In this document: one piece after another, positions 3,108-17,670 of the stretch
How positions within the stretch are numbered: position 1 is the stretch's first letter
How the letters are laid out: every line of letters begins with the position of its first letter
Source: a virus
Virus record (IMG/VR): IMGVR_UViG_3300024999_001043
Location: 1 to 22,269 of that record
Reading direction: 5' to 3' (one strand)
DNA length: 22,269 bases
Notes under the pieces: model-generated
The model's input: only the letters and a program-made list of their open reading frames with translations
What the model was told of the DNA's origin: nothing
Database searches by the model: none
Position numbers and translations under genes: made by a program

Positions 3108-4538
3108 ATGCAATTATTTCAGATAGAAGAAAGAAATATCTCAGACATTATAATCAAAGATCGCGCTCGTACAGCAGTAGGTGACATCTCCAGCCTAGCC
3201 GATTCAATCTCTATGGTCGGCCAACTTCATGCGATTCTTATAGATTCAAATAATGTCTTAATCGATGGTCTTCATCGCATCGAAGCCTTTAAAAAGCTTG
3301 GCAAAGAAACAATTGAAGTTCGAGTCTTCGACGGTATTACTGAAGATGATCATTTCTTGATTGAACTTCTTAGTAATATGGACCGTAAGGAATTCTTGTG
3401 GCATGAGGAAATAGATCTCAAGTATAAGCTGCACAACTATTGGGTAGATGCCGCAGGCAAGGAAAACAAATCTTGGGGCTACAGAGAAACTGCCAAGAGG
3501 CTCAAATGCAGTCTCGGAGGTCTATCTACTGACCTTGCATTTGCAGAAGCTCTCAAAGTCTTCCCAATCCTCAAAGACCAGTCTACTAAAGGCCGAGCTA
3601 AGGAAGCATACAAAGCTCTTGGTGAACAAGCTAAGGCACTTCAGCGAATGGGAAGTTTCACCGATGCTGAAAAAGGGCGTTTAGTTGCATTACAGAACGG
3701 CACCATGACAGCTCCGATAAAAAATACTGTAACTCAAAATGTATTTGAGAAAACCAAGCAAGCTAAGGAAAGACTTACCGAATTCGATGAAGATGATCAG
3801 GAACTTGACGATGAACAAGAACCAATCAGATCTAACATTCAAGTAATTTATGTAGCTGAAAATTATAAAACTTTCCTCGACAAGATTCCTAGCAACTCTG
3901 TGGGGATGGTAGAACTTGATCCACCATACGCAATTGATTTTAACGATAACTATGGTAAAACTAATAAGATCGAATGTAAAGCCCAAGATTGGGATGAAAA
4001 AGAACTTTATGACTTCTACTTTAATTATCTTCCGCTTGTCTATGAGAAGATGCTTGACTGTAGTTGGGCTTTAGTCTGGACAGGCAAAGAACATTTTATA
4101 CAGATCCACAACATTGCTAGAGAAATAGGTTTTGGAGTTCAATCTCCTGGTTCATGGAACAAAGTTGGTGGCAGTACCAATAAACCGAAAACAAATATGG
4201 TGAGCAATTGGGAAATGTTTTTACTCCTGCGTAAGGGAAATGCACAGTTTAATACTCCTAGCTTGTCATCTTCAATTAACATAAGTACAGTTAGCTCAAG
4301 TCAACGCATTCATCAGTGGGAAAAACCTATAGAGCTTTATGATCATTTCTTAAAAGCCTTAGGTAAGCCTGGCACCTTATTTATGAGCCTCTTCGTTGGT
4401 TCTGGTAATTGCTTGATTAGCGCAGCCAAAGAAAAAATGATACCCGTTGGATGTGATAAGAGCCAGAAATATATTCCAGAATTTTATCAGAGACTTGAAA
4501 ATTATCTTGGGATAACTGCTGACGTGGAAGGACTTTAA
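3108..4538 (+). CDS. ParB-like domain fused to DNA methyltransferase (N6-adenine or N4-cytosine)
   Basis: The N-terminus (about 10-75) is a ParB/Srx-type domain: GDISSLADSI, then IDGLHRIEAFKKLG (52-65), the DGxHRxxA form of the ParB nucleotide-binding motif. A helical region (about 80-220) and an acidic linker (226-239) follow. The C-terminal domain (about 243-465) is an amino-methyltransferase, with catalytic DPPY at 271-274, HQWEKP at 402-407 and the S-adenosylmethionine-binding loop FVGSGN at 429-434. The order (catalytic motif before SAM motif) places it in the beta class. It would methylate an exocyclic amine of A or C in phage DNA, as self-protection or regulation. No partner restriction enzyme is present here. 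The recognition site cannot be read from the sequence. The ParB part may bind a nucleotide or guide site choice, which is inference. Confidence 0.9.
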   Translation: MQLFQIEERNISDIIIKDRARTAVGDISSLADSISMVGQLHAILIDSNNVLIDGLHRIEAFKKLGKETIEVRVFDGITEDDHFLIELLSNMDRKEFLWHEEIDLKYKLHNYWVDAAGKENKSWGYRETAKRLKCSLGGLSTDLAFAEALKVFPILKDQSTKGRAKEAYKALGEQAKALQRMGSFTDAEKGRLVALQNGTMTAPIKNTVTQNVFEKTKQAKERLTEFDEDDQELDDEQEPIRSNIQVIYVAENYKTFLDKIPSNSVGMVELDPPYAIDFNDNYGKTNKIECKAQDWDEKELYDFYFNYLPLVYEKMLDCSWALVWTGKEHFIQIHNIAREIGFGVQSPGSWNKVGGSTNKPKTNMVSNWEMFLLLRKGNAQFNTPSLSSSINISTVSSSQRIHQWEKPIELYDHFLKALGKPGTLFMSLFVGSGNCLISAAKEKMIPVGCDKSQKYIPEFYQRLENYLGITADVEGL

Positions 4539-5243: not shown

Positions 5244-7766
5244 ATGATCATTCCAAGCATATCAACTACAGCAACTCCGCAGAAAGAAGATTCTTTCGAT
5301 TGCCTCGCTGTAGAGTGCGCTCCAACTGACAACATTCTCACGGCTGAGATTGCAATGGTTGGTGAAGCTCCAGGCGAAATAGAAGTCCTGAAGAACGAGC
5401 CATTCGTTGGCCCGACAGGCTCTCAGCTTAATCGCATCTGTGCAGCAGTCAGACTTGCAAGATACAAAATATACTTAACCAATGCTTGCAAAGCTAAATT
5501 CCCTAAGAATAATACCGCTGTCTTATGGACAGATAAAGGTTACCGTCATCCAGACTGGAGCAAGTTGCAGGCAGCCTTAATTGATGAGCTTGCTCAATTT
5601 CCTGGCAAAGTCATACTGTTGCTCGGTGCAACTCCAATGAGACTTCTCCTGGATGAACCTAAGTTTGATTCAATCACAAAATATCGTGGTTCTTTCTACC
5701 ATGCTGAAGACTTCCCACATTTGAAAGACAAACTGGCTGGCAAGATAATTGGTTTGTCTTATCATCCATCTTTCACCCTTCCATACGGGCAGCCTATCCA
5801 TTTCTATACAATGATCGCAGACTTTACAAAAGCCTTGCGGATTATTGAAGCCCCAGAATTGCTTGTTGACAATGTGGAAATAAAAATCAAGCCTAGCTTT
5901 GAAGAAATCATGCAGTTCTATGCATTGATTAAGACAAAGGAATATGTAGCTTTCGACATTGAAGCTACGCCAGAATTTATTACCTGCTATTCTTTGGCTG
6001 TCTATCACGATAATAAAATTCTGTCCATGTCTGTTCCTCTAATGAACAATCAGGGCAACTATTGGGCAACAGCAGAAGAGATAAAAATATGGATTGGATT
6101 AGCAGAAATACTTAACGATGAAGCAATAGGTAAGATTTGTCAAAATGGAATGTTTGATATCATGTTTACTTTCCGCACCATGATGATTAAAACAGATAAC
6201 TTTTATTTTGACACCATGCTTGCACAGCACATATGTTATACAGAACTCCCAAAAGGGCTTGATTATTTAACTTCAACATACACTTACTATCCATACTATA
6301 AGGACGAAGGAAAGCAATCACACCTTAAGGCTATCAAGAACTGGCCACAATACTGGACTTATAATGCCAAAGACTCAGCATACTTATTGCCAATAACTGA
6401 GAAGCTCCTTGAAGAATTAAGTGAATTCGATTCTATGGATGCTATGGATTATACAATGAATCTTCATAAGCCACTTATGGAAATGGAATTCAACGGCATC
6501 CTGACTGATCAGAAAGGTATTAGTAAAAGAAAAAAAGCACTTGAAAGAATACTTAGACTTCTTCAATATAAATTAAATAAATTAACTGGTAAAGAACTTA
6601 ACCAAGGTTCATCAAAGCAAATGATAGCTTATTTCTACGGCCTTTGCATGATCAAGCCATATGTTAATCGCAAAACTGGAGCTATCTCTTGTGATGCTGT
6701 AGCCATGCATAGGATAGCAAAGAAAGGAATTAAGGGGTCTGAAGAAGCTAGAATCATTATTAAAATGCGAGGCTATCAAAAACTTTTATCTACTTATTTT
6801 AATGTCACTGTAGATGAAGATGATAAAATTAGATGTAATCATAAAATAACTGGTACAGTTTCAGGACGTATTGCTACTGAAAAAACTTACCAAGGTACAG
6901 GAACAAATCTGCAAAACCAACCTTATATGTTTAAGTATTATCTGATTGCTGATCCTGACTGGATTATGTGTGAGTGTGATCTTGCTAAGGCTGAAGCTCA
7001 TGTCGTTGCATACCTTACTCAAGATGCCAACATGATTCAGTCATTCGAATCTGGCATTGATGTTCACAGTTTTAATGCTAGCAAGATTTTTGGTGTGCCA
7101 ATTGAAGAAGTAATTTATGAAGCAAAGAATAAAAAGGCTGATCAAAAATCTACCATGCGTTACATGGGCAAAAAGGTTGTTCATGCATCTAACTATAGCA
7201 TGGGACCTCAAACATTCTCAGACAATCTTGCAAAAGAAGAAGTTTTTATGTCTCAGTCAGAGTGTAAACGCCTTCTCGATAATTACTCTGACCGCTTTCC
7301 TGGCCTCAAACGCTGGCACAGATCAATTGAAGAGGAAGTACAAAAGAATCGAGTTCTCTACAACTTATTTGGCCGGCCTCGCAGGTTCTTGGGTGAAATG
7401 AATGCAGCACTATTCAGAAATGCCTATAGCTACAAACCTCAATCAACCGTAGCAGAGTTGTTAAATCGTGGAATGATAAAAGTAGTTAATGACCCCAGGC
7501 TTGGCAAAGATGGCTTTGACATTCGTTGTATGACAACTGTCCATGACTCGTTTGTATTCAGGTTTCACAAAAGTCAGATTCCAAACTTACCTCAGATTCT
7601 TCTTATCATTAAAGATCACCTAACACATACCTTTACTTACAAGGGAAAGAGTTTTACTATTGGACTAGATGCCAAGATAGGAACCCAATGGGCCGGCAAC
7701 ACGGCTGAAATCAGTAAGTTTACTCAGGAAGAATGTGATAAAGCAATTGAGAAGATAGGATTCTAA
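5244..7766 (+). CDS. DNA polymerase I (family A) with N-terminal UDG-like domain and 3'-5' exonuclease
   Basis: Residues about 30-200 match the family-4 uracil-DNA glycosylase fold: GEAPGEIE at 40-47, PFVG at 53-56, NACK at 80-83, LLLGA at 125-129 and HPS at 174-176. The iron-sulphur cysteines look incomplete (Cys20, 25 and 82, with no fourth in the usual place), so glycosylase activity is uncertain. The DEDDy exonuclease is intact: Asp238/Glu240, Asp305 and Tyr373/Asp377. The polymerase has motif A with Asp579 and Glu584, motif B with Arg639, Lys643, His647 and Tyr651, and motif C HDS with Asp768. His647 occupies the position of E. coli Phe762, usually Phe, Tyr or Leu in phage PolA. Motif C has Ser where HDE is usual. 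A UDG-PolA fusion is known in phage SPO1. AAGGA precedes the ATG. This is probably the replicative polymerase. Confidence 0.95.
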   Translation: MIIPSISTTATPQKEDSFDCLAVECAPTDNILTAEIAMVGEAPGEIEVLKNEPFVGPTGSQLNRICAAVRLARYKIYLTNACKAKFPKNNTAVLWTDKGYRHPDWSKLQAALIDELAQFPGKVILLLGATPMRLLLDEPKFDSITKYRGSFYHAEDFPHLKDKLAGKIIGLSYHPSFTLPYGQPIHFYTMIADFTKALRIIEAPELLVDNVEIKIKPSFEEIMQFYALIKTKEYVAFDIEATPEFITCYSLAVYHDNKILSMSVPLMNNQGNYWATAEEIKIWIGLAEILNDEAIGKICQNGMFDIMFTFRTMMIKTDNFYFDTMLAQHICYTELPKGLDYLTSTYTYYPYYKDEGKQSHLKAIKNWPQYWTYNAKDSAYLLPITEKLLEELSEFDSMDAMDYTMNLHKPLMEMEFNGILTDQKGISKRKKALERILRLLQYKLNKLTGKELNQGSSKQMIAYFYGLCMIKPYVNRKTGAISCDAVAMHRIAKKGIKGSEEARIIIKMRGYQKLLSTYFNVTVDEDDKIRCNHKITGTVSGRIATEKTYQGTGTNLQNQPYMFKYYLIADPDWIMCECDLAKAEAHVVAYLTQDANMIQSFESGIDVHSFNASKIFGVPIEEVIYEAKNKKADQKSTMRYMGKKVVHASNYSMGPQTFSDNLAKEEVFMSQSECKRLLDNYSDRFPGLKRWHRSIEEEVQKNRVLYNLFGRPRRFLGEMNAALFRNAYSYKPQSTVAELLNRGMIKVVNDPRLGKDGFDIRCMTTVHDSFVFRFHKSQIPNLPQILLIIKDHLTHTFTYKGKSFTIGLDAKIGTQWAGNTAEISKFTQEECDKAIEKIGF

Positions 7767-8121: not shown

Positions 8122-8184
8122 ATGGGAAAGCCCATTAAATTAGTATTTGCTATTCAAGGAACCTTTTCATGTCGAGGCAATTAG
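8122..8184 (+). CDS. Possible 20-aa leader peptide
   Basis: An open frame MGKPIKLVFAIQGTFSCRGN begins inside a 6-bp hairpin (AATGGG, loop AAAG, CCCATT, 8121-8136) and ends 16 nt inside the following ATPase gene. A weak AGAG lies at 8110-8113. The overlap would allow translational coupling, with the hairpin hiding the leader start. This is small and may be chance. I include it because the gap is unusually long for this arm. Confidence 0.25.
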   Translation: MGKPIKLVFAIQGTFSCRGN

Positions 8185-9440
8185 ATAATTGGTTAGCCCA
8201 CTATATGAAGTATACTCAGCGAACAGAGCCACCAGAACTATACCATCTTTGGAGCGGACTAACAGCCATTAGTTCTGCTTTGCGAAGAAAGTGCTATTGT
8301 AACTGGGGAGCACTTCGTGGTTATGTTTATCCTAACTTATTCGTATCTCTTGTCGGGCCGCCTGGGGGACGGAAAGGCACAGCCATGAAAATTGCAAAGA
8401 GCTTTGTACAGAAACTAGACGTTAATATCGGTGCAGATTCACTAGGCTCAACCCAGGCACTGTACAAAGAACTCATGGACAGCGAAGATACTTATGTTGA
8501 TCATGCTGGGTTTACTCGCAAGCATAAGAGCGTCTCAATCTGGTCAGAAGAATTTCAAGTCTTCCTGAACGACAGAGATCAGATGCTTCTCGCATCCCTG
8601 ACTGACCTATTTGATTGTGCAGATACTTGGAAGTATAAAACCCTAGCCAGGAAGACTGAAGATATATCCAATTGTTGGCTAACGCTTTTTGGCTGCATAA
8701 CTCCTAGTCTTTTGCAATCTAAGCTGAGTCAAGATGCAGTCGGTGGGGGCCTGATATCTCGGATTATTTTCGTAGTTGGCCAAGGACCCAAGCAAAGAAG
8801 AGCCTTACAGTTCTTGACTGAGGAGGAGGAAGATACACAAAAAAGGTTAGAAAACGATCTGCAGGAAATTGCAAACCTATCCGGACAGTTCACCTTAAGT
8901 AAGGATTTTCTCAAAACTTATGTTCGTTGGTATGAGCAAGATTATGACGAATCTGGAGTGCCAAGCGAGCGCTTTCTTGGTTATAATCATAGACGACCAC
9001 TTCATTTGAATAAGGTCTGTATGCTTGTTTGTGCTGCCGAGTCTGATGACATGATCATTACGGCTGAACATTTTGAGCAAGCCTTAGCAATAATGCAAGC
9101 AACAGAACTTGAGATGCCAAACGCGTTCTATGGTTTAGGCTTGTCCAGTCAGGCTAACATCTATGCCAAGATACTTTCATTCATTGATAGTCACGAATCT
9201 TTTGAGTGGACAGAACTGGTTAGGAACTTTCACCTAGATGTAGATAACATTCCTCAGTTACGTGGCTATGTTGAAATGGCTGAACAGTCTGGAATACTCA
9301 AAGCCGAGAATTCTGCTACAACTTGCATGTATACCACCATTCGTAAGAAACAAAAGATTCGTGATCCAACATATCTTGATAGAACAATATTTAGATTGAT
9401 AGATAGAAATGTTATTAAAAATCAAATGGAGAAAAACTAA
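8169..9440 (+). CDS. P-loop ATPase, DUF3987-like (probable helicase-type replication protein)
   Basis: The N-terminal part (EPPELYHLWSGLTAISSALR) and YPNLFVSLVGPPGGRKGT resemble DUF3987 proteins, which phage and plasmid genomes carry as primase/helicase-associated ATPases. The Walker A loop spans Gly63-Thr71 (GPPGGRKGT, Lys69), with Arg and Gly where GxGKS/T is usual. A Walker-B-like strand IWSEE is at 124-128, and a conserved GGGLISRIIF segment could supply an arginine finger. The C-terminus (about 310-423) looks like a winged-helix region. AAGGAA at 8156-8161 sets the start. No DnaB-type helicase or zinc-binding primase is in the window, so this is the best candidate for a replication-fork motor; that role is inference. 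Confidence 0.75.
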   Translation: MSRQLDNWLAHYMKYTQRTEPPELYHLWSGLTAISSALRRKCYCNWGALRGYVYPNLFVSLVGPPGGRKGTAMKIAKSFVQKLDVNIGADSLGSTQALYKELMDSEDTYVDHAGFTRKHKSVSIWSEEFQVFLNDRDQMLLASLTDLFDCADTWKYKTLARKTEDISNCWLTLFGCITPSLLQSKLSQDAVGGGLISRIIFVVGQGPKQRRALQFLTEEEEDTQKRLENDLQEIANLSGQFTLSKDFLKTYVRWYEQDYDESGVPSERFLGYNHRRPLHLNKVCMLVCAAESDDMIITAEHFEQALAIMQATELEMPNAFYGLGLSSQANIYAKILSFIDSHESFEWTELVRNFHLDVDNIPQLRGYVEMAEQSGILKAENSATTCMYTTIRKKQKIRDPTYLDRTIFRLIDRNVIKNQMEKN

Positions 9441-12231: not shown

Positions 12232-12272
12232 GCCAGAACCTACGATAACTTGTAAGTTCTGGCAATCTTTTT
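12232..12272. terminator. Bidirectional terminator between convergent arms
   Basis: GCCAGAAC (12232-12239) pairs with GTTCTGGC (12256-12263). After one C/A mismatch, TAC pairs with GTA to extend the stem around an 8-nt loop. On the + strand TCTTTTT (12266-12272) follows. On the - strand the complement of 12221-12231 gives TTTTGTTTTAT. The hairpin therefore can stop both thyX read-through and the leftward late transcript. It lies exactly between the two stops. Confidence 0.85.
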
Positions 12273-15200
12273 ATTGCACCGTACCTGTAACCTCAAAATA
12301 TCTTTTCAATATCATCTCCCGTTGCTGTTGCAACTGTCCAAGCCTTTCCCGAACATTTGTTGTCTGATCAATCTTTTTCAACTTATTAATTACTGCCTGG
12401 TTCCGATTGAGGGCAGATTGAAAATTTTCATGCAATTTCATTTGCTTGAATCCATCCAGGTTTGAATTCAAGAAAGTTCGCTTGTCTTCCGAGTTTTCAA
12501 GCTGCTTCTTGAAGATGTCTACTTCCTTGCTGACCTTACCAAACTCTTGTTCATTGCTACTCTTCTTATAGTCTTCTCCACGACCGTAGTGCCAATAATA
12601 GAGCTTACCACCAATTGGGATTGATTCAACAATTCTGGCATGATCAAAATCAATTGTATCTCCCGTAATGTAAGATCCATACAATTGGTTAAGATCCTTA
12701 CTGATGGAGTTTACAAACCTGAAGGGAGGCAAGATCTGTCCGATTAATCCAGATCCTAAACCTTCCCTAGTAGTTTGCATCCTTACATACTTTGATGCTC
12801 CGCCCATGGTTAAGAAGTTTTCAATCACGTGATCTTCAAACTTAGTTTCTTTACCCAACATCCAGTCTTTAAGTTCATCCGCGCCTGCATTAGCAAGTGT
12901 AAGCAAACTTACCAGCTTTATCATGTTACCAATTCCTTCAATAACCTGATCCCGTTCGCCAGTCTTAATTTTGTGCCAGGCTTCATTTCTGAAAACATCA
13001 AACTGCTTTAGTGTATATGTCTTGAGCATATAAAACACTCGACCATTTCCACTCTTGAGATATTGCTCTGACATTTCAGAAAGTGCAACCGGTTGAAAAT
13101 CTAACAATCTATGATACAACAACATCTTCACGTTGTCTGTTGGATTTCCGGCAAGCAAATCATTTATTATACCTTCCGACTGTGTACCAAAGATTGGCTT
13201 GATTTGTTTCAATAATGTCTGTCGTCCAGCCTCAGTGCTAGCCATAACCTTGTAGTTACTAAACGCATTGTTGATCAAAGTCTCCTTGCCGATAGAATCT
13301 ATTCGTTCCAGTCCAACTTTTTTAAATACCCAACTGACTGCATTCCCTAACGTTGTTCCGTCTGCAAACTCCTGAGCTATCCTTTCAATGCCTAAGTCTT
13401 CCTTAGTTATTTCAGACTTCTTAGTTATGGCCTTACCAACATTCTTAATTGTATCAGCTAAGCCACGTGGTGTCCATACTTTGCCAACATACATCGCCCA
13501 AGCCAAATCTCCAATCTGAGTCAGTGCAGATATAGGCGATCCCATTACGTCTATGTATGACATATTCTTGTAGGCATTAACTATTCCTGTAGCTCCATGT
13601 TCGTGGAATCTCGCATCAAGAATATCTCTAACTACTTTTTCATCATCTGCTTGAATTCGACCAGACATTCGCAAGTCATTAATATATGTTCCAATATTCT
13701 CAGTATAGTCTCTTTGCAGTTTGTACTTATCCAATTCTTGTTCAATCCTAATTAGGTCGCCTGAAACATCATCTATGCGTGCAGTATTGTTGGATTTTTC
13801 ATACTCTGTGAGCATTACCTGCTTTCGTTTCTTCTCAGCTTTTAGGCTTGCTATTCTTTCTGGAACCTTACCAAAGAACTTCCGTGCTTCTATTTTCTTT
13901 GTCATACTATAGATGTATTGCATCAATGCTGCATCACTATCCATGTAAAACTTATTCAACTCTGGCGGAACAGTTTCATATTGCCTGGCTTGAATGTTGC
14001 CTGGGCCACCAAGTCCGAGGTTCCTCCCTAGTATTGTGTTGCTTGCAATATCTGCTGCCTGTTCAGGATATTCAATCTCAAACTTTTCAACTGTCATCCC
14101 AAGTTTGTCTGCATAAACTTTGATTGCATCAGTAATAACGGGGCGTTGAGAAATTCCTTTAGTTGCTTGCAAGAATCCTTCCTGATCCTTGATTACGCGT
14201 GGCCAGTATTCTTCGATAAAACCAACATCATAACCAACATCAATTGCATCCTGACGAATCTGATCCAGGACTGATCGCAGCTTTTCTTGATCAGCGATCA
14301 TGTTATATTTTGTTGCCAGCTCTTTTATCTTAACCTCGTCTGAATTACGTCTCGCTGCATCCCAAACAAATTTGTCTTGCGGACTCATTTGTTTAGTCTT
14401 TTCTAATAATGGATGTGCAATTCGTAAAGCAGTTACAATCTTTTGTGAAGTTCGAAAATCGAGGTTTCTAATCTCTGACCGAAGCATAGGATCTACATTT
14501 TTAAGTCTAGTTGATATAGATCCCAATCCCTTGTCGATGAGTTGCTTAATTTCATGTCCACGCATACGAAGCATCTGACCAATTGTACGTACCAAACTAT
14601 TTCGTTCGCTGAACATTTGATGATAAACATCATCACTAATCTTCTGAGTTGGGGCTTCACGAACCTCGAACATCGGCATACCTTCACGGAGTGCCTCAGC
14701 TTTCCGCTCATAAATCTTTCCACTTTCTACTTCACGAGCCAATCCCGATACTGTTTGCTTGCCAAAGCTTAACATCTGCTGAAAGAAGTCCATTACTCGT
14801 TGAATCACTTTACCAAACGCAGTGTTACGATATTCAGCTCTGTTGACCATAATCTGAGCAAACATGTTCGCACGATTCTCAATCATACGCTGCTTCTTAT
14901 TCTCATTCTCACTCTTCTTTGGATCATTATAAGTACTCAAAGCAAAGGCAAGCTTACCTGCCTTCCGCAGCTTGTTAAACTCTCTATTAAGCGCGCTATC
15001 ATCTGCTTCTGTAATCAACCCCAGGTTGTCAAGGACATGCTTGTTTTCATGCCAAAGAGTCTTATTGTCTGCAAAGTTTTCATCAAGAAGAATTTCATTG
15101 CCAACAGTAATTCCAAAGATACTTTTACCTTTTGACATTTGACCAGTTTCAATTGCTAACTTAATAAATCCTTCGCCTGCATTTTGAATACTATTGATTG

Positions 15201-17670
15201 TTAAGTCTTGTCCATTCTTGAACTGAATAGCTACTGAACCATTTTCATGTTGAGTAACTGTTTGATTTGGAAAAGTCTTTTTAATGTCTTCAAGACTTAC
15301 TTTGCCTAATGCTTCTTGATTTTCGTTTACTTGAAACTGTGGAACACTACCTACTTGCCGTTCATTAGTGAACCCACTCGGCAAACCTCCGGGCAAGTTT
15401 CTAGGAACCTCAGTTTGAACTGCCTGCCTATTTACTGACGGAACATCTCCGAGGTCTTTAGCAATTTGTTGAAACCATGCCTGACGTTTATTTTGCTCAG
15501 CTAAAGATGGAACAGCATTTTGTTTTGCTTCACTTTGTACTGTAGTATCACTCTTAACATTATTTTCAATTTCATTAAGTTTAGTCTCAAAGAACTTACG
15601 CTTCATATAAGCCTCAGTTCCAGGAGTCATTTTTTCACGAGCTACTTCTAACTCACCTTTAACTTCTTGCCAATAATTTTCAATAATACTTCTTTCATCT
15701 GGACTAAACTTTTGATTAAGAAAACTAGTTATTTGATTTTGATAATCACTAATTACTCGTAATTTTTCAAGATCTTCTGGAGTTGTTGCAACTTCCTGAA
15801 GTAAACTTTGTTTTCTTTCATTATCTTTAATATCATTTATTTCATTCACATAATCAACAATACTATTATAGCGTTGATTAATCACTCCTTGGTCTTTCAA
15901 CTCATTAAATCTTGCCTGCAGATCATCAGCATACTGACTAGCATTTTGTAAAATCCTTTCACGCTTAGGATCTACTTGGTTTTCTTGAGTCTTAAGATTA
16001 ATTATTTCATTATAATAATCAGTAATATCTTTTGCAACTTTTTGATCTGGCAATGAATTAATAATTTCTGCAGATTCAGCAGTATCCTTCTCAAATCCTA
16101 CCTTATCACTTTGATTACTATTAGCAGTTCCAAAAAGCTCCTCAAGATATTTCTGCCTACCATCTCTAGTAGTGTATGGTGCAAAAGCCTTCTTAACCTC
16201 AGGCGTTTCTTTATCAAGTAACTCATTACGCCTTTTGTTCAATTGAATAAGTTTATCTTCAATTACTTTTCTTTCTTCTGCACTTGGTGATGTCTTAGCA
16301 TCTAATGCATAAGGGTCAAACTTACGATTATATTGTTCAGAGAGAGTTGTAATCTCATTATCAATATTTGTAATTCTTTCATTAAGCTGGCTTGCAGATT
16401 CATATCTGTGAGTAGCTAACTTATTTTCAATCTCTTTTACTTCCTTCTCTTCAGGAGAAAGTGCTTCATATTCTTTCTTAGCAAGTTCTTCTTTCTTCTG
16501 AATTCCTGAATTAATCCGATCCAGAAGACTCTGCTTATTTTTATTATCTTCAACTGTCTTTCTAATCAATTCAGCCGGATCAACATTTTCTTTCCTTGCC
16601 TTTGCTTCAAGTTTATCAAGATCATTAATAAGTTCCTGGTTTGAATTAATATCAGTAGTTAACTTTTGAATACTTTTATCAAGTTCGTCATCTTTCAGAT
16701 TGAGAATATTTGCTGCCTGCCTATCAAGTTCTAACTCTTGTTCAGTCTTTTCAGCTGGCTTATCTACTCCTGGAAGTAAATTTGCACCACCACCCATCAC
16801 TCCACCAAGAATAATAGCTTGTGCAGCTCCTTCAGGTACTCCCTCCATCAAAGGCTTATCAAGAGCTGCATTAGTAAATATTGTCTCTTGAATAGTTTGT
16901 GGCAATTCCTCAAACACACCTTCAGTTATACCACCACCAATAATAGATTTCACAACACCTTTAAACCCTTCTTTCTTAGCAGGATTTAAGCCAGAAATTA
17001 CCATTGTATCTATATCAGCAAAACCAAGTTTCTTGGCTAATGAGCCACCGACTATACCAAATGCTGATGTACCTAATCCTGAAACTACTGCAAGTGCAGA
17101 TTGTTTAGCAGTCAAAAGATCATCAGGTGTTGCATTTCTTATTTGCTCTGCAGTTTGTCCAGCAGATATTGCCCCCTCACCAACTGATCCAGCAGCAATA
17201 GCAGATCCAGTTTTGCCTAATGCAGTTACGGCCTTTGGTAATAATTTGCTACTAAGAGCAAGAGCACCACGACCTAATACACCACCAGCAGCAACAGATG
17301 GCAATGTTTCAACAATACCATGAGCAATAGTACTTGGATTTTCCAACATTGCTTGAGCTGTATCAACAAAGCCTTTTGCCTCATCAACCTTTTTATTTGC
17401 TTCTTGTTGTGCAAGAGAATATTCTTCAGAAAGATCTGCCTGCCATTCTTCTGGTTTTATTCCAATATACTCAAGTCCACGACCAACTCTTCCACCAGTT
17501 GGAATATCAGCAAGCCCCACAATTCCTTGGCCTGCACCAATAACACCTTTAGCAAGAGACACACCAGTGTCTTTTAATGTAGAGCCTAAAGTACGTTCAG
17601 GCTTTTCATCAAATTGATCAAAAGGATTTTCATCTACAGGATCAAATTGATCGAAAGGATTTGTACTCAT
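12271..17670 (-). CDS. Giant polyvalent internal virion (ejection) protein with metallopeptidase motif
   Basis: In order, this 1799-aa protein has a twin NPFDQFD motif (residues 4-10 and 15-21), a Gly/Ala-rich hydrophobic region (about 40-300), a long charged coiled-coil region (about 310-700), a Pro/Gln-rich linker (about 720-790) and a zincin-like domain. In the zincin-like domain HENKH (874-878) fits HExxH, and Glu931 in ENRANMFAQ is a likely third zinc ligand. The C-terminal half (about 1010-1799) contains EEYWPRVIKD and GRVFYMLKTYTLKQFDVFR, typical of large phage polyvalent proteins (LPD38-like). Such proteins are packaged inside short-tailed phage heads and are ejected to help DNA cross the cell envelope. 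The peptidase might cleave cell-wall or virion proteins, which is inference. AGGA about 8 nt before the ATG sets the start. GC is lower at 15300-16700 than at 12300-15000. Confidence 0.8.
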   Translation of the reverse strand: MSTNPFDQFDPVDENPFDQFDEKPERTLGSTLKDTGVSLAKGVIGAGQGIVGLADIPTGGRVGRGLEYIGIKPEEWQADLSEEYSLAQQEANKKVDEAKGFVDTAQAMLENPSTIAHGIVETLPSVAAGGVLGRGALALSSKLLPKAVTALGKTGSAIAAGSVGEGAISAGQTAEQIRNATPDDLLTAKQSALAVVSGLGTSAFGIVGGSLAKKLGFADIDTMVISGLNPAKKEGFKGVVKSIIGGGITEGVFEELPQTIQETIFTNAALDKPLMEGVPEGAAQAIILGGVMGGGANLLPGVDKPAEKTEQELELDRQAANILNLKDDELDKSIQKLTTDINSNQELINDLDKLEAKARKENVDPAELIRKTVEDNKNKQSLLDRINSGIQKKEELAKKEYEALSPEEKEVKEIENKLATHRYESASQLNERITNIDNEITTLSEQYNRKFDPYALDAKTSPSAEERKVIEDKLIQLNKRRNELLDKETPEVKKAFAPYTTRDGRQKYLEELFGTANSNQSDKVGFEKDTAESAEIINSLPDQKVAKDITDYYNEIINLKTQENQVDPKRERILQNASQYADDLQARFNELKDQGVINQRYNSIVDYVNEINDIKDNERKQSLLQEVATTPEDLEKLRVISDYQNQITSFLNQKFSPDERSIIENYWQEVKGELEVAREKMTPGTEAYMKRKFFETKLNEIENNVKSDTTVQSEAKQNAVPSLAEQNKRQAWFQQIAKDLGDVPSVNRQAVQTEVPRNLPGGLPSGFTNERQVGSVPQFQVNENQEALGKVSLEDIKKTFPNQTVTQHENGSVAIQFKNGQDLTINSIQNAGEGFIKLAIETGQMSKGKSIFGITVGNEILLDENFADNKTLWHENKHVLDNLGLITEADDSALNREFNKLRKAGKLAFALSTYNDPKKSENENKKQRMIENRANMFAQIMVNRAEYRNTAFGKVIQRVMDFFQQMLSFGKQTVSGLAREVESGKIYERKAEALREGMPMFEVREAPTQKISDDVYHQMFSERNSLVRTIGQMLRMRGHEIKQLIDKGLGSISTRLKNVDPMLRSEIRNLDFRTSQKIVTALRIAHPLLEKTKQMSPQDKFVWDAARRNSDEVKIKELATKYNMIADQEKLRSVLDQIRQDAIDVGYDVGFIEEYWPRVIKDQEGFLQATKGISQRPVITDAIKVYADKLGMTVEKFEIEYPEQAADIASNTILGRNLGLGGPGNIQARQYETVPPELNKFYMDSDAALMQYIYSMTKKIEARKFFGKVPERIASLKAEKKRKQVMLTEYEKSNNTARIDDVSGDLIRIEQELDKYKLQRDYTENIGTYINDLRMSGRIQADDEKVVRDILDARFHEHGATGIVNAYKNMSYIDVMGSPISALTQIGDLAWAMYVGKVWTPRGLADTIKNVGKAITKKSEITKEDLGIERIAQEFADGTTLGNAVSWVFKKVGLERIDSIGKETLINNAFSNYKVMASTEAGRQTLLKQIKPIFGTQSEGIINDLLAGNPTDNVKMLLYHRLLDFQPVALSEMSEQYLKSGNGRVFYMLKTYTLKQFDVFRNEAWHKIKTGERDQVIEGIGNMIKLVSLLTLANAGADELKDWMLGKETKFEDHVIENFLTMGGASKYVRMQTTREGLGSGLIGQILPPFRFVNSISKDLNQLYGSYITGDTIDFDHARIVESIPIGGKLYYWHYGRGEDYKKSSNEQEFGKVSKEVDIFKKQLENSEDKRTFLNSNLDGFKQMKLHENFQSALNRNQAVINKLKKIDQTTNVRERLGQLQQQREMILKRYFEVTGTVQ
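17608..17662 (-). repeat. Two 22-bp near-identical repeats encoding NPFDQFD
   Basis: Positions 17608-17629 and 17641-17662 differ at one base and lie 33 bp apart, in phase with the reading frame. They encode the two NPFDQFD copies at the N-terminus of the giant virion protein. The single mismatch suggests recent duplication or strong constraint. Confidence 0.8.

Follow-up and report, generated by a model that had tools for sequence, protein, structure and literature searches.

The residue equivalent to position 762 of E. coli Pol I strongly affects activity in the DNA polymerases of T7 and Taq. In virus studies it also links sequences with speed of replication and with life style, and three states of it are recognised. 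The largest published survey of the position (Keown 2022) retained only F, L or Y, and Phe, Tyr and Leu are also the states named in a 2026 T7 preprint. In T7, Tyr526 makes two contacts with the incoming nucleotide, its ring stacking against the ribose and its hydroxyl forming a bond to the beta phosphate; a Phe in its place keeps only the first, and a Leu neither. The Y526F change halves activity, and Y526L loses 97% of it and gives no plaques (PMC13228545). Tyr762 has been linked with gp4 helicase and Leu762 with SNF2 or UvrD-type helicases (PMC9069017). Fusions of uracil-DNA glycosylase (UDG) with PolA were described earlier in PaBG and related 'Lupandier' jumbo phages (PMC7412058).

The present study concerns a polA gene in a viral DNA stretch of 22,269 nucleotides (positions 1 to 22,269 of IMG/VR record IMGVR_UViG_3300024999_001043), hereafter the window. 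Its product carries His at position 762, outside the published viral PolA classes for this residue (Phe, Tyr, Leu). A His762 class is missing from the largest survey because its filter kept Phe, Leu and Tyr only. Family A membership and the UDG fusion are known, while the His762 class, its Asn765 partner and the primase linkage look new. The initial annotation had allowed that a His762 clade might already be well characterised; neither such a paper nor any description of a His762 PolA was found in the literature searched, most subscription journals lying outside its scope.

The fusion polymerase and its residue 762

The open reading frame at 5244..7766 (+ strand, ATG start) codes for 840 amino acids in which Pfam places three domains in order, in agreement with the UDG-PolA fusion proposed at first reading. 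A UDG-superfamily domain, family-4-like and of uncertain activity (aa 33-181, 5340..5786, PF03167, E 2.5e-14), is followed by a 3'-5' proofreading exonuclease (DNA_pol_A_exo1, aa 225-392, 5916..6419) with D238, E240, D305 and D377 present in conserved columns, and by the family A polymerase domain (DNA_pol_A, aa 427-817, 6522..7694) with R542, D579, E584, H608 and Q733. NCBIfam and PHROGs agree with Pfam on the product. The PF00476 match scores 147.6 bits against a curated cut-off of 34.3, and the family A catalytic residues R668, D705, E710, R754, K758, Y766, Q849, H881 and D882 are all present in the alignment. The statement of the initial annotation that the enzyme is otherwise intact was thus upheld for both active sites. 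An AlphaFold2 model made from 26 sequences from the window and IMG/VR (mean pLDDT 90.3) predicts a Klenow-like right-hand fold; against 1kfd it gave Z 33.9 and rmsd 3.3 over 522 residues at 22% identity, a comparison covering mainly model residues 209-826. On sequence grounds the product is best read as the replicative family A DNA polymerase of a tailed phage, with a proofreading domain and without 5' nuclease.

Two other window genes were observed. The frame at 3108-4538 (+) has a ParB-like N-terminal domain fused to a DNA N6/N4 methyltransferase. The 1799-aa protein at 12271-17670 (-) matches phrog_30335 and phrog_11358, neither with a known function, and has a weak match to an endolysin family; it is likely to be a large virion or injected protein.

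In alignments with E. coli Pol I and T7 gp5, Arg639, Lys643, His647 and Tyr651 fall on E. coli R754, K758, F762 and Y766. His647 (codon CAT, 7182..7184) shares its column with E. coli F762 and T7 Y526, in exact four-residue steps from the K758 and Y766 equivalents. Residues 638-650 (7155..7193) form helix O, one unbroken helix in the model which contains R639, K643, H647 and N650 and is followed by Y651; Asn650 (codon AAC, 7191..7193) is position 765. It is highly improbable that another residue truly occupies 762 and that His is displaced by misalignment. The helix O arginine of the PaP2 branch does lie one residue further from His, but the R-K-H-Y spacing of the window enzyme is exactly 4-4-4, the alignments are concordant and the helix is predicted unbroken. 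The placement of His647 at 762, and the spacing shared with E. coli on which the initial annotation had based it, is firm, and it stood when the predicted structure was brought in. Motif C reads His-Asp-Ser (HDS; aa 767-769, 7542..7550) instead of HDE as had also been claimed, with Ser769 replacing E883 in its column.

Spread of His762 among viral relatives

His762 is not a chance substitution in one enzyme, and in the sequences compared it is the normal state of a large clade of viral PolAs. The close family comprised 58 distinct loci; His and HDS are present in every one of the 55 that are alignable at the motif. When 138 non-identical viral PolA proteins were aligned, column 762 was H in 136 and N in 2, and column 765 was N in 135; K758, Y766, D705 and H734 were invariant and E710 was E or D throughout this set. 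In the numbering of the window enzyme H608, K643, H647 and Y651 are invariant even at 28% identity. The clade signature in helix O, as the alignments give it, is His762 together with Asn765, GKxxxHxxNY.

Similar results were obtained when residue 762 was left free. A degenerate DNA pattern fixing R..GK......NY.MG found nearly all His among the matches listed; the exceptions there were two Asn (L067 and L123) in long PolA frames, one Leu in a 372-aa PolA frame (L139) and three chance matches in frames of 13-21 aa. An alignment-based scan keyed on motifs other than 762 gave at least 515 relatives. Both scans were seeded from the window enzyme and favour its relatives, so these counts do not say how frequent His762 is in viral PolAs as a whole. 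PolA-independent sampling was done through the primase gene in IMG/VR: 76 of 80 loci had a PolA frame, located with a profile derived exclusively from Phe/Tyr enzymes, and the 75 readable ones comprised 74 His and a single Phe (L348, GKKANFGLDY). Asn765 is replaced by Asp in L348 and in three His enzymes of this sample. A further alignment search (A2) of the genome collection gave 11 loci in metagenome-assembled genomes, most of them on phage-sized contigs. Hundreds of related viruses thus appear, from their sequences, to carry His762.

Several single loci deserve mention. The 372-aa PolA frame of L139 has Leu762 with Asn765 (GKTLLLAANYGMG), which means that Asn765 also occurs with Leu. The nearest PolA relative outside IMG/VR (L279, PIVU01000005.1, 46% identity) lies on a 51 kb contig of a Nitrospirae metagenome-assembled genome beside the same neighbour gene; if rightly binned, this contig gives a weak hint of the host. 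Intein-like insertions, read as such from a starting Cys, a terminal Gly-Asn and a following Ser or Thr, are seen in the His762 polA of L248 (between GKK and SNH, two residues before His762) and near the R668 motif in L130 (between GTG and TNLQNQP) and L057, and the polA of L046 carries an insertion at the L057 site. In L018, L019, L202, L203, L059 and L027-L029 an HNH endonuclease-like frame stands at the polA 3' end, and beyond it comes a second copy of the last ~18 polA codons, as would result if a mobile endonuclease gene had detached the tail of polA; two different endonucleases are involved.

Named phages were also read. His762 is found in Pseudomonas phage PaP2, Polaromonas phage Tiera, EBPR podovirus 3, Aeromonas phage P5, Microcystis phage Mel-JY34, Caulobacter phage Kuura and a Desulfofustis phage, and by near-identity in the PaP2 relatives 119X and the PaMx phages; the PaP2 group, Tiera, P5 and Mel-JY34 are cultured. 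Phe762 is found in Lebethron, KimJongPhill, LysYB1, Jamzy, AG74, Zulu, Ilzat, BSP38, Almagne, Colly_1, OLIVR3, STP12, IME260, SPO1 and vir526, and none of these Phe762 phages has Asn765. The survey of 762 among phage PolAs that the initial annotation had proposed shows His762 to be general in this clade. Its view of an odd change in one enzyme stood as far as the residue is concerned, but the residue marks a large, old clade with cultured members, Asn765 and a primase neighbour. The HDS motif is likewise present but was rejected as a special feature, being common with Phe762 (SPO1, LysYB1, AG74, IME260, Ilzat, BSP38 and Colly_1); column 883 of the 138 aligned viral proteins holds S in 107, A in 14, Q in 7, E in 5 and D in 1, with 4 gaps.

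Neighbouring gene, UDG domain and descent

Directly downstream of polA lies a gene for a DUF3987 / phrog_14296 primase- or helicase-like ATPase (8169..9440, +), identified by Pfam and PHROGs and found by the locus surveys to be a conserved neighbour of His762 polA. A DUF3987-type gene follows PolA in 122 of the 123 loci with enough sequence. Among 23 phage genomes phrog_14296 was present in 7/7 with His762 and in 1/16 with Phe/Tyr762, the exception being vir526 (Fisher p 3e-5, a value that ignores shared descent, since the linkage comes from one clade and not from many independent events). In one locus (L365) a 769-aa PolA frame that seems to be missing most of helix O, possibly decayed or misassembled, stands beside an intact primase neighbour.

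The UDG domain meets its superfamily profile (PF03167, 54 bits against 24.3) and keeps its motif A (GEAPGEIE) and motif B (HPS) intact. It falls below the curated family 4 cut-offs, with 65.3 against 125.3 bits for TIGR00758 and 51.1 against 250 for NF040953. Of 43 close relatives that possess the domain, 28 retain E41, 20 retain G44 and 27 retain N80, whereas the more distant His762 enzymes mostly keep GxxPG and the His. Uracil excision by this domain is possible but doubtful, because of the missed cut-offs and the drift of motif A among close relatives. In Caulobacter phage Kuura (L181, 677-4081) UDG and polymerase occupy separate frames with two small genes between them, a natural split.

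It could be that His762 and Asn765 are tuned, together with the fused UDG, to an unusual nucleotide pool such as modified or uracil-containing DNA. Most members do have the domain, and ThyX and MazG-like genes lie nearby. Yet the dTMP that ThyX produces is an ordinary nucleotide, no gene for base modification could be recognised in the set of window proteins scanned, and the UDG motif drifts in the subfamily of the window enzyme. Moreover, no UDG domain was detected in the His762 enzymes of PaP2, Tiera and P5, and UDG fusions occur with Phe762 in Lebethron, LysYB1 and vir526. A tuning of this kind is therefore unlikely. The fusion as a cause of His762 was rejected on the same separation of the two traits in both directions.

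In a tree from which columns 762, 765 and 883 had been removed, 63 His and 2 Asn rows fell on one side of a branch and all Phe/Tyr rows on the other (SH-aLRT 92). In a second tree, with L348 added and long branches left out, vir526 branched just outside the His group with supports of 97 and 87; its polymerase has Phe762, a UDG domain and a phrog_14296 neighbour. These were quick trees with a single support measure, and the exact root of the His group is moderately supported. The simplest reading would be one change from Phe762 to His, followed by one change to Asn and one reversion to Phe. Likewise, the module of UDG-PolA with phrog_14296 would most simply predate His762, UDG being lost later in the PaP2 branch. 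His is not strictly required at 762, as one lineage has gone back to Phe (L348) and one to Asn.

A single origin with vertical inheritance also fits the view that His762 is an inherited structural substitution of no distinct effect, the enzyme acting as an ordinary Phe762 PolA while Asn765 and other clade residues compensate. Phe762 enzymes are active, and L348 is a natural Phe revertant inside the clade. On the other hand, His762 is conserved almost absolutely at overall identities of 28-35%, and the same position matters strongly in T7 and Taq. We regard a neutral His762 as a minority possibility, if a serious one.

Possible chemistry and comparison with known systems

We consider it probable that these enzymes add a fourth 762 class to the replicative viral PolAs, marked by His762/Asn765 and the phrog_14296 neighbour, in which the imidazole takes the Phe/Tyr ring and hydrogen-bond role. 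By analogy with Phe and Tyr the imidazole would stack on the sugar of the incoming dNTP, and it could donate a hydrogen bond to the triphosphate as the T7 Tyr hydroxyl does. Asn765 may orient the imidazole, since 765 adjoins 762 on the helix. If this role is true, active and fairly fast synthesis would be expected, with acceptance of ddNTPs above that of Phe762 enzymes; rNTP exclusion is expected to be retained because the E710 equivalent is present. The literature searched yielded neither a structure nor an assay of a His762 PolA. As natural enzymes, His762 PolAs could be used for probing how an imidazole handles ddNTPs and modified nucleotides. A fourth state, in hundreds of viral contigs and in cultured Pseudomonas phages, would mean that a part of the viral PolA tree is absent from the 762 scheme. 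More speculative is a stronger form of the proposal, in which a His762-Asn765 dyad has its own nucleotide-selection chemistry (imidazole donor to the triphosphate, with pH-dependent rate and ddNTP choice) and has co-evolved with phrog_14296 as a distinct replisome type absent from 762-based virus ecology.

With the Klenow fragment of E. coli the window enzyme shares the exonuclease and polymerase fold and the catalytic residues; it differs from E. coli Pol I in having His762/Asn765 for Phe/Ile, HDS for HDE and a UDG domain where Pol I has its 5' nuclease. T7 gp5 is likewise a phage replicative family A enzyme with proofreading and a polar-capable ring at 526 (= 762), but this is Tyr rather than His, and T7 is without the phrog_14296 partner. 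The vibriophage phiVC8 polymerase DpoZ is another phage PolA whose motif B is altered and whose motif C contains Ser. However, DpoZ carries Leu455 together with Phe459, which takes the place of the steric-gate Tyr, whereas the window enzyme keeps Tyr766 as Tyr651 (PMC8599892). Assignment as such an aminoadenine polymerase was rejected on the retained Tyr651 and on scores of 57.9 against 500 bits (NF038380) and 48 against 350 (NF038381). The UDG-exonuclease-polymerase order is that of the PaBG/Lupandier phages and of Spounavirinae such as LysYB1, and of Lebethron, although the fusions of LysYB1 and Lebethron carry Phe762. PaP2/119X PolA (YP_024759.1), at ~25% identity and with no UDG domain detected, shares His762, Asn765, HDS and the adjacent phrog_14296 gene. 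The linkage of phrog_14296 with His762 parallels the helicase links published for Tyr762 (gp4) and Leu762 (SNF2 or UvrD-type; PMC9069017).
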